This document shows positions 53,979 through 64,000 of a DNA stretch of 64,000 nucleotides, in pieces. Both the position numbers and the translations under genes were made by a program. The DNA lies in contig DYJI01000004.1 in the NCBI GenBank assembly GCA_020723185.1, positions 62,001-126,000 on the forward strand, read 5' to 3'. The stretch's first letter is position 1, and each line of letters opens with the position of its first letter. The stretch comes from Sideroxydans lithotrophicus (GTDB lineage: Bacteria; Pseudomonadota; Gammaproteobacteria; Burkholderiales; Gallionellaceae). The notes under the pieces are model-generated. The model had not been told where the DNA came from, did not search any database, and saw nothing but the letters and a program-made list of their open reading frames with translations.

Positions 53979-55790
53979 TTAACCGATAGCGACTTTGTTC
54001 AGACGCGCCTTGCGGCCGTAGATCAGGTTGACAAATGCGCGCGACACCATCACGCCGCTGAACATCGAGGTCAGGATGCCCAGACACAACACCACCGCGA
54101 AGCCCTTGACCGGACCGGAACCGAACATGAACAACGCCACACCCGCGATCAGCGTGGTGATGTTGGAGTCAAGGATGGTGGCAAAGGCATTCTCGTAGCC
54201 GGTGTGAATCGCCATCTGCGGCGGCACCCCGTTGCGCAGTTCCTCGCGGATACGCTCGTTGATCAACACGTTGGCATCGATCGCCATACCCAGCGTCAGC
54301 GCGATACCCGCCATGCCAGGCAGGGTCAATGTCGCTTGCAGCATGGACAGCAGCGCGATCAGCAGCAGCAGGTTGGCCCCCAGCGCCAGCACCGAGATGG
54401 TGCCGAACATCAGGTAGTAGGCGATCATGAACACCGCCACCATGATGAAACCGATCTTGGTGGAATCGAAACCGCGCTGGATGTTGTCCGCCCCCAGGCT
54501 GGGACCGACCGTGCGTTCCTCGATGATCTCCATCGGCGCAGCCAGCGCACCGGCGCGCAGCAGCAGGGCGATGTTCTGCGCTTCGGTGGTATCCATCTGG
54601 CCGCTGATCTGCACGCGACCGCCGCCGATCTCCTCGCGGATCACCGGCGCGGTCACCACTTCACCGCGTCCCTTCTCGAACAGGATGATCGCCATGCGCT
54701 TGCCCACGTTCTCGCGCGTCGCTTCCTTGAACTTGCGCGCACCGACCGCATCCAGATTGATATGAACGGCCGGTTCGTTGTTGCGGCTGTCGAAACCGGG
54801 CTGGGCATCGTTGATGCGCTCTCCGGTCAGGATCACGCTCTTCTTCACCACCAATGCCGTACCGTCGCGCTCCTGGAATATCTCGGTGCCGAATGGCGCC
54901 GCACCGTTCACGCCGATCTGGCGGTCATCGTCCACCAGACGCACTTCCAGCGTGGCGGTGCGGCCGAGGATGTCCTTGGCTCGCGCCGTGTCCTGCACAC
55001 CCGGCAACTGCACCACCACGCGGTCCGCACCCTGCTGCTGGATGACCGGCTCGGCCACACCCAGTTCGTTCACGCGGTTGCGCAGCGTGACCAGGTTCTG
55101 CTGCAAGGCCGAATCCTGGATGCGCAGCTTCTCCTGCTGTTTCAACGTCGCCTGCAGCAGATAGTCACGCCCCGCATCCTTGCCGTCGAACTGCAGGCCG
55201 GCGAAGCGCTGCTTGAGCTCGGCTTCACCCTTGCTGCGCGCCTCCGCATCGCGGAACTTGACGAGGATGGCTTCGCCATCCAGGCTCACGCCGGAATAGG
55301 GGATGCGCGCTTCACGCAGCGTACTGCGGATATCGCCGGAAAAGGATTCCAGCGCCTTGTCCAGCGCGGCCTTCATGTCCACCTGCATCAGGAAGTGCAC
55401 ACCGCCGCGCAAATCCAGCCCCAGATACATGGGCAGCGCGTTCATCCCGGTGAGCCAGGCGGGCGAACGCGACAACAGGTTCAGCGCCACCACATAGTCC
55501 TCGCCCAGTTTTGCGTGCAGCACATCCTTGGCCTTGAGCTGACTGTCAGTGTCGGAGAAACGCGCCTTCACGCTGTTCGCGTCCAGCGAGATCGCCTCGG
55601 GAGACAATTGTACATCGCGCAGCGCCTGTTCGACTGTCGCCAGCAGTTGGGTATCCGCCTTCAGATGACTACGCAGCGGCATCACCTGCACTGCCGGGGA
55701 TTCGCCATAGAAATTCGGCAAGGTATAGATGAATCCGGCCACCAGCACGACCAGGATCAACAGGTTCTTCCACAACGGATAACGGTTCAT
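53979..55790 (-). CDS. secD: Protein translocase subunit SecD
   Basis: 603 aa. LGLDLRGGVHFLMQVD, ERTVGPSLGADNIQRG, GMAIDANVLINERIREELRNG and GSGPVKGFAVVLCLGILTSMFSGVMVSR (in parts) are family hallmarks. The large periplasmic P1 domain lies between the first and second helices. It works with SecF and YajC. ATG 55790 follows yajC by 24 bp. Confidence 0.97.
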   Translation of the reverse strand: MNRYPLWKNLLILVVLVAGFIYTLPNFYGESPAVQVMPLRSHLKADTQLLATVEQALRDVQLSPEAISLDANSVKARFSDTDSQLKAKDVLHAKLGEDYVVALNLLSRSPAWLTGMNALPMYLGLDLRGGVHFLMQVDMKAALDKALESFSGDIRSTLREARIPYSGVSLDGEAILVKFRDAEARSKGEAELKQRFAGLQFDGKDAGRDYLLQATLKQQEKLRIQDSALQQNLVTLRNRVNELGVAEPVIQQQGADRVVVQLPGVQDTARAKDILGRTATLEVRLVDDDRQIGVNGAAPFGTEIFQERDGTALVVKKSVILTGERINDAQPGFDSRNNEPAVHINLDAVGARKFKEATRENVGKRMAIILFEKGRGEVVTAPVIREEIGGGRVQISGQMDTTEAQNIALLLRAGALAAPMEIIEERTVGPSLGADNIQRGFDSTKIGFIMVAVFMIAYYLMFGTISVLALGANLLLLIALLSMLQATLTLPGMAGIALTLGMAIDANVLINERIREELRNGVPPQMAIHTGYENAFATILDSNITTLIAGVALFMFGSGPVKGFAVVLCLGILTSMFSGVMVSRAFVNLIYGRKARLNKVAIG

Positions 55791-59969: not shown

Positions 59970-60054
59970 GCCGGGGTGATGGAACTGGTAGACGTGCCGG
60001 ACTCAAAATCCGGTGCCGCAAGGCGTGCGGGTTCGAGTCCCGCCCCCGGCACCA
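59970..60054 (+). tRNA. tRNA-Leu(CAA)
   Basis: 85 nt, with the 7-bp acceptor stem GCCGGGG...CCCCGGC, discriminator A and encoded CCA at 60052-60054. The anticodon stem CCGGA/TCCGG encloses the loop CTCAAAA, giving anticodon CAA, and a long variable arm is present (class II tRNA). The T-arm reads GGGTTCGAGTCCC. Leucine tRNA genes are common targets for P4-type integrases, and one lies just downstream. Confidence 0.97.
60030..60054 (+). other. Likely attachment-site core (3' end of tRNA-Leu)
   Basis: P4-type integrases usually recombine at the 3' end of a tRNA gene, here the T-arm plus acceptor end from about 60030. The matching second copy would lie at the far side of the island, outside the window; no second copy was seen between 60055 and 64000. 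Confidence 0.4.
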
Positions 60055-60068
60055 AGCAATATGCAAAC

Positions 60069-60092
60069 AACCCGCCCATTGCGGGTTTTTTT
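60069..60092 (+). terminator. Rho-independent terminator after tRNA-Leu
   Basis: AACCCGC (60069-60075), loop CCATT, GCGGGTT (60081-60087), followed by a run of T. Confidence 0.9.
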
Positions 60093-60203
60093 GCGGCCTA
60101 AATAACCGAAAACCCCAATAGGCACAAGCCTTTCATCAGTTCGCCATCGTTCGAGGAAGTTCGCTTTCGTTCGCCCCTAGCCTCTGTCTTTTTTGGAGAA
60201 TTT

Positions 60204-60288
60204 GGGGGTATTTCGAATGTCGAAAAAAGTCATTTTTTGGAATGACCGGGGGTATTTCGAACGATGGATGAAGAAATTGGGGGTATCC
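60204..60288 (+). repeat. Three direct repeats upstream of the integrase gene
   Basis: GGGGGTATTTCGAA occurs at 60204-60217 and again at 60248-60261, and a shorter GGGGGTATCC at 60279-60288. Spacing is 44 and 31 bp, about four and three helical turns. They lie between the tRNA 3' end and the integrase start, where integrase arm-type sites or operator sites would be expected. Confidence 0.65.
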
Positions 60289-60337
60289 GTGCACAAATCT
60301 CCGCAGCTACTAGAATCCAACCAACAGGAGATCAAGC

Positions 60338-61603
60338 ATGCTGACGGACAAAACCATCAAAGCACTCAAACCCAAAGATAAGCAATACAAGGCCAGTGAC
60401 GGGAAAGGACTGTATCTGCTCGTCACCCCCAGTGGCGGTAAGCTCTGGCGTTTAAAATTCAGGGTGGCAGGAAAAGAGAAGCTTCTTACTTTGGGCCACT
60501 ACCCGGAAATCACACTTTCAGATGCTCGAACTCGCGCTCAAGAGGCCCGCAAAGAACTTGCTAACGGGATTGACCCCGCCCAGGCAAAACAGCGCACAAA
60601 AGACGACTTGCGCCGGAGAGTGCAGCACACATTCGGCAATATAGCCGTTGCCTGGCACAAGCGTGAGTCAGTACGCTGGACACCCAATCATGCGAAACGA
60701 ATAGCGCGCGAGATTGAGCGAGACCTTTTCCCACATCTGAAATATACCGAAGTCGACCAAATCAACACCCCCATGTTGATACGGGTGGTCAAGCGCATCG
60801 AAGCGCGTGGTGCACTGGACGTCGCCAGCCGAGCGCAACAACGTTTGACCAACATCCTGAAGTATGCGGTTCAGCATGGGTTGATACAGCACAATCCCGG
60901 TCTGAACCTTGGCGGGATCATTGTGAAACCTATTGAACAGCATCGTCCCGCCGTTCGACTGGAAGAAGTGGGGGAACTGGTTCGGAAAATATACGAACTT
61001 GATGGACATCGGTTATCGCCATTAACTCCACTTGCCCTCAAACTCACACTACTAACATTTTTAAGATCCATAGAGATCCGCGCCGCACGTTGGGAGGAGA
61101 TCGACTTCGCAAAATGCACATGGACTGTGCCCCCAATCCGAAATGAGATCACCAAGGATGGTGGCATGAAATGCCGAAAGGAACACATTGTTCCACTATC
61201 CCGGCAAGCCATCGAAGTGCTCTTGGAGATCAAGAATCTTGATCTTTCCACTTCACTGTTATTTCCGATGCGCGCAGGCTCAAATTCGGTGATGAGTGAG
61301 AACACCATGAATCAAGCCCTGAACAGACTGGGCTACAAGGGGCGACAGACAGTGCATGGTTTGCGCACTGTCGCCTCAACGGTACTCAACGCTGGCGACC
61401 GAAGGAATAAATGGAACAAGGATGCAATTGAGCGGCAACTTGCTCACTCGCCACGCAGCGAAAATGCAGTTCGTGACGCATACAACCGCTACGAATTTCT
61501 GGAGGAAAGGACGGAAATGATGCAATGGTATGCCGACCGGCTCGATCATCTGGCGGAAGCCAGCCAGCCATACGGTGTAGTTCTTGATCTGAAGCGGGCG
61601 TAG
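60338..61603 (+). CDS. P4-type tyrosine integrase (DUF4102 family)
   Basis: 421 aa. The N-terminal DUF4102 domain (MLTDKTIKALKPKDKQYKAS, LWRLKFRVAGKEKLLTLGHY) precedes a core-binding domain and the catalytic domain: arginine in TFLRSIEIRAARWEEID, lysine in CRKEHIVPLS, HGLR in the TVHGLRTVAS motif, histidine in ERQLAHS and the tyrosine in AYNRYEFL. All active-site residues appear intact. It opens the accessory region next to tRNA-Leu; ATG 60338 follows AGGAGAT. Confidence 0.95.
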   Translation: MLTDKTIKALKPKDKQYKASDGKGLYLLVTPSGGKLWRLKFRVAGKEKLLTLGHYPEITLSDARTRAQEARKELANGIDPAQAKQRTKDDLRRRVQHTFGNIAVAWHKRESVRWTPNHAKRIAREIERDLFPHLKYTEVDQINTPMLIRVVKRIEARGALDVASRAQQRLTNILKYAVQHGLIQHNPGLNLGGIIVKPIEQHRPAVRLEEVGELVRKIYELDGHRLSPLTPLALKLTLLTFLRSIEIRAARWEEIDFAKCTWTVPPIRNEITKDGGMKCRKEHIVPLSRQAIEVLLEIKNLDLSTSLLFPMRAGSNSVMSENTMNQALNRLGYKGRQTVHGLRTVASTVLNAGDRRNKWNKDAIERQLAHSPRSENAVRDAYNRYEFLEERTEMMQWYADRLDHLAEASQPYGVVLDLKRA

Positions 61604-61653
61604 CAAAGCATTGAAGGCCGTTTGCGGGCGGCCTTCAAACCATGACGCTTTGC
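61603..61653 (+). terminator. Hairpin downstream of the integrase gene
   Basis: Perfect 10-bp stem TTGAAGGCCG (61611-61620)/CGGCCTTCAA (61629-61638), framed by an outer pair GCAAAGC (61603-61609)/GCTTTGC (61647-61653) and followed by TTTTC. Probably the integrase terminator. Confidence 0.65.
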
Positions 61654-61852
61654 TTTTCAATTTCCTAATTAGCAATATCCGGCAGATTTGTCCGGCCTAG
61701 GCTTCAACAGACAAGTCCATCAGGTCGGCCCACAGTTTATCCGCCCCCGCCACTGGGTTACAATCCGCCGCAAGCCGCCATCATAACCAGCGCAATGCGC
61801 GCATAACAGGCCGCCCCTTCCATACGGAAGCACGAGGATAGTAAGAAAGAAA

Positions 61853-61870
61853 GCACGCAAACATGCGTGC
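61853..61870 (-). terminator. Candidate minus-strand terminator hairpin
   Basis: GCACGCA (61853-61859) and TGCGTGC (61864-61870) form a 7-bp stem. Read on the minus strand it is followed by TTTCTTTCTT, which would fit a terminator for an RNA transcribed leftward from the region before cas9. Confidence 0.45.
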
Positions 61871-61907
61871 GATGTTTATTTGCTTGTGCAATCGCAAAGG
61901 GGATTCA

Positions 61908-61964
61908 ATGACACGCAACCTCCACACCGCCTTCATCATCCGAAATGAAAGGGGCCGCATCTAG
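61908..61964 (+). CDS. Possible 18-aa leader peptide
   Basis: ATG 61908 with AAGGGG five bases upstream (spacing ATTCA). It encodes MTRNLHTAFIIRNERGRI, then TAG. The stop lies inside the loop side of the GC hairpin 61943-61977, so translation of the peptide would affect folding of that hairpin. Either a leader peptide of an attenuator or a chance ORF. Confidence 0.35.
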   Translation: MTRNLHTAFIIRNERGRI

Positions 61965-61977
61965 CGGCCCCTCATTT
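61943..61977. promoter_or_regulatory. Strong GC hairpin upstream of cas9
   Basis: GGGGCCGC (61951-61958), loop ATCTA, GCGGCCCC (61964-61971), extended by AAATGA (61943-61948) pairing TCATTT (61972-61977) across an AA bulge. There is no T-run on either side. It could be part of a small RNA or an attenuator structure. Confidence 0.5.
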
Positions 61978-62017
61978 GGTGCATCTTTCTGCTTGTTAGC
62001 GGTCTAGAGCACAAATC

Positions 62018-62068
62018 CCAATCTATTGATGGAATGCATCGTAGATTGGTTGACCTGAATCAGTCAAC
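62018..62068. promoter_or_regulatory. Overlapping inverted repeats just before cas9
   Basis: CCAATCTA (62018-62025) pairs with TAGATTGG (62042-62049), with an inner GATG/CATC pair. GTTGAC (62049-62054) pairs with GTCAAC (62063-62068). The two stems share a base at 62049 and end 24 bases before the cas9 ATG, where a repressor site, leader structure or part of a tracrRNA might lie. Confidence 0.45.
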
Positions 62069-62092
62069 TAAAAAAGCAATCAGGAGAAATCC

Positions 62093-64000
62093 ATGTTCGG
62101 AAAAATGCGTTACCGCCTGTCACTTGATCTGGGATCGACTTCACTGGGCTGGGCTATGGTCAGACTCGACAAGGAAAATAGACCATGCGCAATCATCAAG
62201 GCTGGAGTGCGCATTTTCTCAGATGGACGCAATCCAAAGGATGGCACCTCTCTCGCCGTAACCCGACGCGCCGCCCGCGCCATGCGTCGACGCCGTGACC
62301 GTCTACTCAAGCGCAAGCAGCGCATGATGGGCGCACTGATCAAGCATGGCTTCTTCCCCTCGGATCAGGTTGAACGCAAGACACTGGAAACGTTAAATCC
62401 CTATGCACTAAGAGCCAAGGGGCTGGACAAAGCACTAACTCCTGCAGAATTTGCCCGCGCCCTATTCCACATCAATCAGCGGCGCGGATTTAAAAGCAAT
62501 CGCAAGACAGACAAGAAAGAAAACGATAGCGGAGCATTGAAATCCGCAATCAGGAAGCTACACGAGGCCCTACAAACAGAGAATTGCCGCACCGCAGGCG
62601 AGTGGCTGAACAAACGACATGAAGCCAAGCAAACCGTTCGCGCCCGTTACCGCCAAGAAAAGTCATTGAAAGAGGATGGCAAAACCAAGATCGACAAGTA
62701 TTACGACCTCTACATTGACCGCGCCATGATCGAGCACGAGTTCGATGCACTTTGGACAAAGCAGGCCGAACTAAATCCAGCCATCTTCACCGAACCGTCA
62801 CGAGCCGAACTCAAAGATATATTGCTGCACCAGCGCCCACTTAAACCCGTCAAACCTGGGCGCTGCACCTTTCTGCCGGAAGAAGAACGCGCACCGCTGG
62901 CTCTACCCAGCACCCAACGATTCCGCATGTATCAGGAGGTAAACAACCTGCGCATCCTGCGCGAGGGGTTAAAGGAAGAGCCTCTGACGCTGGAACAGCG
63001 CGATACGCTCACTGCCGCTCTGGAAGAAAATAGCAAATGCTCGTTCACCAAGATCAAGAAATTGCTTGGTGTAGGCGGCACGGTTCAATTCAACTTTGAA
63101 GACCCAAAACGTCAGGAACTCAAAGGCAACACCACCAGTGCCATCCTCGGCAAAAAGGATTTATTCGGCCCGGCCTGGTTCAAGTTCGACGAGGCCAAGC
63201 AAGACGACATCGTGATGAAACTGCTCACGGAGGAAAGCGAAGAAACCTTGGTTCGCTGGCTGCAACGAGAAACGGGACTTGATGAAAAAACCGCCGAGAC
63301 CATTGCCAACGTTGGCCTGCCGGAGGGCTATGGCAACCTGAGCGCCAAAGCGCTTGCACTCATCTTGCCGGAGCTACGCCGAGATGTTTTGACTTATGAC
63401 AAAGCCGTGCAGGCTGCTGGATTCGAGCATCACAGCAAACTAGGCTCCGATACCGAAATTCCCGGTGTCACGTTCAAGGCAGAGCGCATAGATTTGGACA
63501 CGGGAGAAATTAAAACATTCCATGTCCACCACAAACTGCCCTACTACGGTGAATACCTGCAACGGCATGTTGGCTTCGGCAGCGGCAAGCCAGAGGATAC
63601 TGCCGAAAAACGCTACGGCAAGATTGCAAACCCAACCGTTCACATCGGCCTGAATCAAGTTCGCTTGGTCGTGAATGCGCTCATCCAGCGCTATGGACAT
63701 CCCAGCGAAGTCATCGTGGAAGTTGCCCGTGAACTGAAACAAAACCAGGAACAGCGCAAGGAAGAAAACCAGCGCCAAGCCAAAAATCAAGATCGCAACA
63801 AGCGGCTACGCAGCGATATTGCCGGCATCCAGAAGATCGGCATTGAGCAGGTCAGCCGCGACGACATCGAAAAAATGATTTTGTGGGAAGAACTGAGCAA
63901 CGATGTAGCCGACCGCAAATGCCCCTATTCAGGCATACCGATCAGCGCCGCCATGCTGCTCAGCAATGAAGTCGAGATCGAACACATCCTCCCCTTCTCG
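62093..64000 (+). CDS. cas9: Cas9 endonuclease, type II-C-like, N-terminal 636 codons (cut by window edge)
   Basis: Open to the right edge from ATG 62093; AGGAGAAATCC lies upstream. RuvC-I is SLDLGSTSLGWAM with D12. The arginine-rich bridge helix is RRAARAMRRRRDRLLKRK (58-75). RuvC-II reads VIVEVARELKQN with E543. HNH begins at the last residues, VEIEHILPFS, with catalytic H631 preceded by E630. Spacing of these motifs matches compact type II-C Cas9s such as N. meningitidis (about 1,080 aa). RuvC-III and the PAM-interacting domain are beyond the window. No frameshift or stop is seen. Confidence 0.95.
   Translation, partial: MFGKMRYRLSLDLGSTSLGWAMVRLDKENRPCAIIKAGVRIFSDGRNPKDGTSLAVTRRAARAMRRRRDRLLKRKQRMMGALIKHGFFPSDQVERKTLETLNPYALRAKGLDKALTPAEFARALFHINQRRGFKSNRKTDKKENDSGALKSAIRKLHEALQTENCRTAGEWLNKRHEAKQTVRARYRQEKSLKEDGKTKIDKYYDLYIDRAMIEHEFDALWTKQAELNPAIFTEPSRAELKDILLHQRPLKPVKPGRCTFLPEEERAPLALPSTQRFRMYQEVNNLRILREGLKEEPLTLEQRDTLTAALEENSKCSFTKIKKLLGVGGTVQFNFEDPKRQELKGNTTSAILGKKDLFGPAWFKFDEAKQDDIVMKLLTEESEETLVRWLQRETGLDEKTAETIANVGLPEGYGNLSAKALALILPELRRDVLTYDKAVQAAGFEHHSKLGSDTEIPGVTFKAERIDLDTGEIKTFHVHHKLPYYGEYLQRHVGFGSGKPEDTAEKRYGKIANPTVHIGLNQVRLVVNALIQRYGHPSEVIVEVARELKQNQEQRKEENQRQAKNQDRNKRLRSDIAGIQKIGIEQVSRDDIEKMILWEELSNDVADRKCPYSGIPISAAMLLSNEVEIEHILPFS

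Follow-up and report, generated by a model that had tools for sequence, protein, structure and literature searches.

A probable integrative mobilizable element at a tRNA-Leu gene of Sideroxydans lithotrophicus carries a full type II-C CRISPR-Cas9 system

The 64,000-bp stretch of Sideroxydans lithotrophicus DNA analysed here (the window; contig DYJI01000004.1, positions 62,001-126,000, or G000:C4:62001-126000) ends within what is probably a 10,464-bp integrative mobilizable element (IME, of the iMOB kind), inserted at the 3' end of a tRNA-Leu(CAA) gene and carrying, as the one cargo that we can recognise, a complete type II-C CRISPR (clustered regularly interspaced short palindromic repeats)-Cas9 system. 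The contig has a length of 280,721 bp in a genome of 2.6 Mb. The part past the window edge was followed in C4:121900-140000, given below as L006 positions, to which 59899 is added to obtain window numbering. We put the probability of this reading at roughly 0.85. The boundaries and gene content of the element are well supported by its sequence; its mobility, its helper, the direction in which the cargo was captured and its present activity are things that we infer.

The left end of the element lies in the integration target, the tRNA-Leu(CAA) gene (59970..60054, plus strand; ARAGORN; Rfam RF00005, 54.5 bits), at whose 3' end lies the 19-bp left attachment core attL, GTCCCGCCCCCGGCACCAA (60037..60055, plus strand). 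The right counterpart, attR, is a copy of the same tRNA end with one G missing, GTCCCGCCCCCGCACCAA, and lies outside the window at L006:10602-10619 (G000:C4:132501). The distance between attL and attR is the element size given above. Downstream of attR follow a NUDIX-type gene (named by eye), mnmA and purB. In two relatives, G021 and G006 (loci L094 and L096), the site is empty, and homology continues from tRNA-Leu straight into the NUDIX gene. The BLAST homologies of the two flanks, L006:1-156 on the tRNA side and the sequence from L006:10602 on the NUDIX side, overlap in both genomes by exactly 19 bp, the length of the core. Spacing agrees as well: in the four relatives' loci in which both an exact core and a NUDIX start were found (L094, L096, L099 and L102), the two are 52, 51, 47 and 199 bp apart, compared to 51 bp from attR here.

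The tRNA-Leu(CAA) gene is found within 1.5 kb upstream of mnmA, at varying distance, in 22 of 29 relatives' loci. Six of the remaining seven (all but L121) comprise two with a longer tRNA spacing, one split between contigs, two that end near the tRNA, and one in which ARAGORN gave no tRNA, though part of tRNA-Leu matches. With 1.5-kb flanks included, neither these 29 mnmA-side loci nor 29 loci on the queA side in relatives gave a protein match to the integrase, relaxase, AlpA or Cas9 of the element. The guanine-cytosine content of the element is 0.526, lower than in any of 128 overlapping segments of the same size from the neighbouring stretches (0.562-0.625). One relative, G033, carries 534 bp with 82% DNA identity to the right end of the element at the same site, which suggests that a related element visited the same place. 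The G033 site is covered by L237 (G033:C19, a contig end) and L238 (G033:C198). The related right end is on the NUDIX side, and its AlpA frame is broken early by a stop. The sequence that follows the tRNA-Leu of G033 is a different one, close to the edge of a contig, and no cas9 match was found in this genome.

Next to the tRNA gene, the element encodes an intact P4-type tyrosine integrase of 421 aa (60338..61603, plus strand) with arm, core and catalytic domains (PF13356, PF22022 and PF00589). It shares 42% identity with the Int protein of phage P4 (411 aligned positions). Three putative arm-type integrase sites, GGGGGTAT at 60204, 60248 and 60279 (60204..60286, plus strand), separate it from tRNA-Leu, and a further GGGGGTAT at L006:10525, near the right end, places the motif at both ends of the element. 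The recombination sites resemble those of P4 as well. Compared by eye, the annotated P4 attP core and the element core have 17 of 20 positions in common, the arm motifs are similar (GGGGGCAT in P4 and GGGGGTAT here), and the annotated P4 arm repeats have the form TTGGGGGCATAT, compared to TTGGGGGTATTT in the element. Phage P4 itself uses the tRNA-Leu gene leuX. A site-specific integrase, attL, attR and an empty site in relatives are thus all present, with attR imperfect by one base. A preliminary description, made from the window alone, had named the tRNA-Leu, integrase-like repeats and an intact tyrosine integrase, all of which hold.

What follows the integrase reads in sequence as an ordinary, complete type II-C CRISPR-Cas locus, consisting of a trans-activating CRISPR RNA (tracrRNA), cas9, cas1, cas2 and an array. 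The predicted tracrRNA (61945..62024, minus strand) has a 19-nt fully complementary anti-repeat at 62006-62024 and a terminator-like hairpin at about 61950-61972, and is presumably transcribed leftwards. The 131-nt stretch folded here contains a strong hairpin (z = -4.45); an Rfam scan returned no tracrRNA match. The cas9 gene starts at 62093 on the plus strand, stays open to the window end and continues to L006:5301 (from L006:2194). Its 1035-aa product matches TIGR01865 with an E-value of 1.9e-195, in agreement with the type II-C-like cas9 first described, and carries intact RuvC and HNH motifs (PF13395, PF18541), which align with those of a solved Cas9, including the residues that we take to be catalytic. 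The operon is consecutive and contains neither csn2 nor cas4: cas1 (L006:5305-6234, plus strand) starts 3 bp past the cas9 stop codon, and cas2 (L006:6240-6566, plus strand) comes directly after it. The array (L006:6638-8456) starts 71 bp after cas2 and consists of 28 identical 36-bp repeats and 27 spacers of 29-31 bp. CRISPR RNAs are probably made from the minus strand, because the repeat reads GTTCCGG... on that strand, where the anti-repeat also lies with the hairpin beyond it. The same cas9-cas1-cas2 order is found in most of 70 type II-C loci of betaproteobacteria that formed our comparison set (many with short flanks), and many of them have a similar repeat and tracrRNA.

The statement in the preliminary description that cas1, cas2 and an array are missing is correct inside the window and fails on the contig, where all three follow cas9. 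The single effector without adaptation genes proposed from it was an artefact of the window edge. Extending the contig rightwards, as had been recommended, uncovered these genes and the second tRNA-Leu 3' end, one G short.

The spacers give a limited view of what the system has met. Eight of the 27 were searched, as 22-nt cores, against viral contigs, and one of these, spacer 19, matched four contigs (30/30 positions in two and 29/30 in the other two). Its target lies inside a gene matching PHROG 290, 'minor tail protein' (in L260), near a major head gene. Against a phage collection, spacer 19 gave nothing convincing (best E-value 0.6). None of the 27 spacers targets its own genome within the loci fetched, where only three matches of 15-19 nt were found.

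The array is followed by the genes that make the element a candidate for mobilization. A MobA/MobL relaxase of 459-478 aa, depending on the start, is encoded at L006:8528-9907, or to 9964 with the earlier start, on the minus strand (PF03389, E-value 1.3e-24, above the cut-off). Beside it, at L006:9915-9974, lies a 60-bp stretch resembling an origin of transfer (oriT), which we take to be of the IncQ type and which contains an inverted repeat, GTTTCTCG/CGAGAAAC, followed by AACTAAGTGCGC. In both plasmids inspected, the match to this stretch lies immediately upstream of a MobA/MobL gene and points the same way; the inverted repeat and an AACTAAG[TC]GCGC end are common to all three sequences. One of the two plasmids is typed as mobilizable, MOBQ, and the other as non-mobilizable despite its MobA/MobL gene. 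Between the oriT-like stretch and attR, a 63-aa AlpA-like regulator or excisionase is encoded (L006:10055-10246, minus strand; PF05930, E-value 3e-9). Of the genes identified from attL to attR, none belongs to a mating-pair apparatus. Together with the far-side tRNA-end repeat and the empty sites in relatives, the relaxase, AlpA and the oriT-like stretch bear out the earlier suggestion that the Cas9 locus is carried by an integrative element. A standard cas9-cas1-cas2-array in a region syntenic in all relatives and without a repeat of the tRNA end would have refuted that suggestion. The standard set of genes and array is indeed there, but no relative was found to carry the locus at this site, and the tRNA end does recur as a direct repeat.

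The arrangement of these genes bears on the question of whether the CRISPR-Cas locus was already resident at this chromosomal site when a separate element inserted next to it, an order of events that we regard as very unlikely. It would account for the cas genes adjoining the element genes, and it finds some comfort in the comparison set: the nearest related locus, in G021, is chromosomal with no element genes in 10 kb upstream, and most related loci have no match to the integrase or relaxase in the flanks examined (no relaxase match at all among the 70, and integrase matches only at L017 and L043, with 26-28% identity). But the cas genes lie between the two att copies, with the integrase on one side and the relaxase, AlpA and attR on the other, the arm-site motifs match at both ends, and no protein match to Cas9, the integrase, the relaxase or AlpA was found in the mnmA- and queA-side loci described above. 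The faintest chance of all goes to an assembly or binning error that joined a foreign CRISPR contig to the site. Such errors do occur in metagenome-derived records, and our own set contains a case: the whole of L018 (8,102 bp) is identical to L070:8364-16465, CRISPR array included, although the two are labelled as different families (Methylophilaceae and Gallionellaceae), probably by cross-binning between assemblies. Against such an error here, the contig extends over 280,721 bp, both breakpoints coincide exactly with a tRNA-end repeat such as this integrase family uses, and the nearest Cas9 comes from the same genus.

That nearest relative is found in G021, whose Cas9, Cas1 and Cas2 are 87%, 94% and 98% identical to those of the element and whose tRNA-Leu site is empty. 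There, the cas operon is directly behind rsgA, with genes for hrcA, ferrochelatase, an oligoribonuclease-type exonuclease and an M48 protease upstream. The rsgA region of the S. lithotrophicus genome is syntenic with that of G021 (88% nucleotide identity) and has no CRISPR. A two-gene pair with the look of a RelE/HigA-type toxin-antitoxin (by eye) lies behind rsgA here, at L009:12650-13500 (G000:C4 about 54650-55500). BLAST homology between the two CRISPR modules starts about 190 bp beyond the tracrRNA, compared to a start at about the tracrRNA itself for most other cas9 loci. As judged from these alignments, the two loci share the module and some flanking DNA at unrelated places. The likelier direction of transfer would be capture by the element of a module resident on a chromosome in this family, for instance that behind rsgA in G021. 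Since the module shares 82.5% nucleotide identity with that of G021 and the rsgA region shares 88%, the move appears not to be a recent one. In a quick tree of 67 Cas9 proteins (our own and 66 of the 69 from L011-L079, three fragments shorter than 850 aa having been dropped and L080 not entered), the Cas9 of the element groups with three Gallionellaceae (support 100), and those of L017 and L043 fall in other parts.

Cas9 was described earlier as uncommon in this group. This holds only in part, for its occurrence is patchy: of 34 genomes from the genus, 5 (our own included) gave a match, as did 8 of 61 in a wider set. CRISPR is reported absent from Sideroxydans ES-1 and Gallionella ES-2 in the part of PMC3770913 that we draw on. 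A 149-kb Limnohabitans plasmid (NZ_AP027057.1:47137-48975) encodes a Cas9 with 69% identity over the first 636 residues, which indicates that this Cas9 group also rides plasmids.

If the element is mobile, its life cycle can be pictured as follows. The integrase would recombine the tRNA-end core to insert the element and, with AlpA, would excise it; the relaxase would nick the excised circle at oriT, and the conjugation system of a helper would carry the circle into a recipient, in which the element would restore the tRNA end upon integration. The recipient would gain Cas9 immunity with a ready spacer memory and with Cas1-Cas2 able to add spacers.

Several observations weigh against a mobilizable element. 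The attR lacks one core base, which may impair excision. The relaxase matches NCBIfam relaxase models below each cut-off (Ti-type TraA, 2.3e-17, and MobQ, 1.9e-13, being the best), and its match to MobA/MobL of mobilizable plasmids, at about 38% identity, is limited to the N-terminal 227 residues, or half of the protein. The similarity of the oriT-like stretch is weak by itself (35 records, best E-value 0.03). Moreover, the element is known from one genome only. In a search for the integrase and relaxase in 369 genomes of the class and 158 of the family, no second whole element was found. The integrase matched in 59 of the class genomes at E <= 1e-60 and in at least 92 of the family genomes at E <= 1e-40, and the relaxase in 3 at 1e-15 and 6 at 1e-8, respectively, with our own genome counted in every total. 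The best integrase outside it, among the matches listed, is 63% identical (G034, on a contig with a tRNA-Asn), and the best relaxase matches elsewhere reach 35-44% over partial lengths.

These points lend some substance to the idea that we see a former mobile element which has become fixed: its boundaries would be real, but the attR loss or silent transfer genes would have turned it into an immobile chromosomal defence locus. This is a serious possibility, if on balance the less probable one, and it overlaps with the reading as an integrative mobilizable element, since both assume the same origin and differ in the present state. Besides the imperfect attR core, the decayed look of the related right end in G033, with its broken AlpA frame, speaks for fixation, and the lower identity of the CRISPR module than of the rsgA region gives no sign of very recent transfer. 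Against fixation, none of the frames for the integrase, relaxase, AlpA, Cas9, Cas1 and Cas2 is interrupted; the relaxase matches its family across the relaxase domain, and the other five match theirs across most of the protein. The repeats of the array, too, are all identical.

Two loci of the comparison set resemble the element in outline, each combining a P4-type integrase and a full cas9-cas1-cas2 locus with a primase/helicase of phage type (VapE-like or D5-type). The first, L017:6826-21573 from a metagenome-assembled genome of Hylemonella gracilis (CAMAWQ010000006.1), contains a P4-type integrase beside tRNA-Ser, a VapE-like protein, a full II-C cas operon and a T5orf172 protein; beyond the operon, 15 bp of the tRNA-Ser end recur. 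The second, L043:3592-19495 from Jezberella montanilacus (NZ_PVTV01000014.1), contains a P4-type integrase, a D5-type primase and a full II-C cas operon, flanked by tRNA-Ser and by a 14-bp repeat of the end of that tRNA. A scan for tRNA-end repeats found a tRNA in six of L011-L092, of which three have no repeat and L076, L017 and L043 have repeats of 12, 15 and 14 bp, respectively. The integrase arm-domain family occurs somewhere in 43 of 49 genomes, which cover 49 of the 70 cas9 loci; at L017 and L043 its position fits that of the cas locus, and no other clear fit was seen. The empty site expected for L017 was sought in 21 genomes, from which 12 loci were obtained, one of them that of L017 itself; in the loci of the 11 relatives, no tRNA was found within 1.5 kb of aspS, which either speaks against the proposed boundary or reflects a rearrangement. 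Of 20 relatives of L043, only one gave any match, at 30%. Both loci are leads only. That small tRNA-integrating elements with P4-type integrases are repeated vehicles of complete II-C immunity, memory included, seems to us doubtful at present. If it were true, CRISPR-Cas9 would ride both conjugation-type elements, as here, and satellite-type elements, as at L017 and L043.

Two known kinds of element were considered for the S. lithotrophicus insertion and rejected. It has the integrase of a P4-like satellite, but neither an alpha-type primase/helicase nor a helper-phage gene was identified among its genes, and it was not classed as such a satellite because no primase was identified. Similarly, an integrative conjugative element like CampyICE1 was set aside: no conjugation apparatus of its own is among the genes identified, and cas1-cas2 are present. 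P4-like phage satellites with defence cargo, the subject of the sections of PMC9122126 used here, likewise have a P4-type integrase and a similar pattern of attP core and arm sites; the present element has a relaxase instead, and its identified genes include neither a primase nor one for hijacking a helper. CampyICE1, according to the excerpts of PMC8743540 on which we rely, is likewise an integrated conjugation-related element with a type II-C Cas9. It is larger, at what we read as 70 kb, lacks cas1 and cas2 and has three short arrays, unlike the cas1-cas2 and single 27-spacer array found here, and 63.7% of its spacers are predicted to target plasmids, whereas the sole matched spacer here targets a phage.

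Cas9 systems on integrated elements are thus already known, from the consulted portions of PMC8743540 and of PMC6360697. The latter describes II-B islands of Vibrio natriegens and Salinivibrio which, similar to the element, carry a complete Cas9 system with adaptation genes, bear an integrase, occupy tRNA loci and are absent from relatives. Those islands contain cas4 and, in V. natriegens, span a 30-kb region, compared to a II-C system in 10.5 kb here, and the quoted parts of that paper report no relaxase or oriT, whereas the present element has a relaxase and an oriT-like site. The term 'mobilizable' does not occur in that paper. A type II-C system on a relaxase-bearing mobilizable element was not found in a search of open-access literature, among the titles and starts of abstracts listed.

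The distribution of CRISPR-Cas systems is patchy and there is no doubt that they move, yet for Cas9 systems a vehicle has not often been described with its two ends in view. Because both boundaries can be seen here, along with the empty site, genes for mobilization and a closely related module elsewhere on a chromosome, the transfer of a whole immune system with its memory becomes directly testable. The element would represent one route for the spread of bacterial adaptive immunity, and it bears on the question of whom a CRISPR system borne by a mobile genetic element defends, the element or its host.

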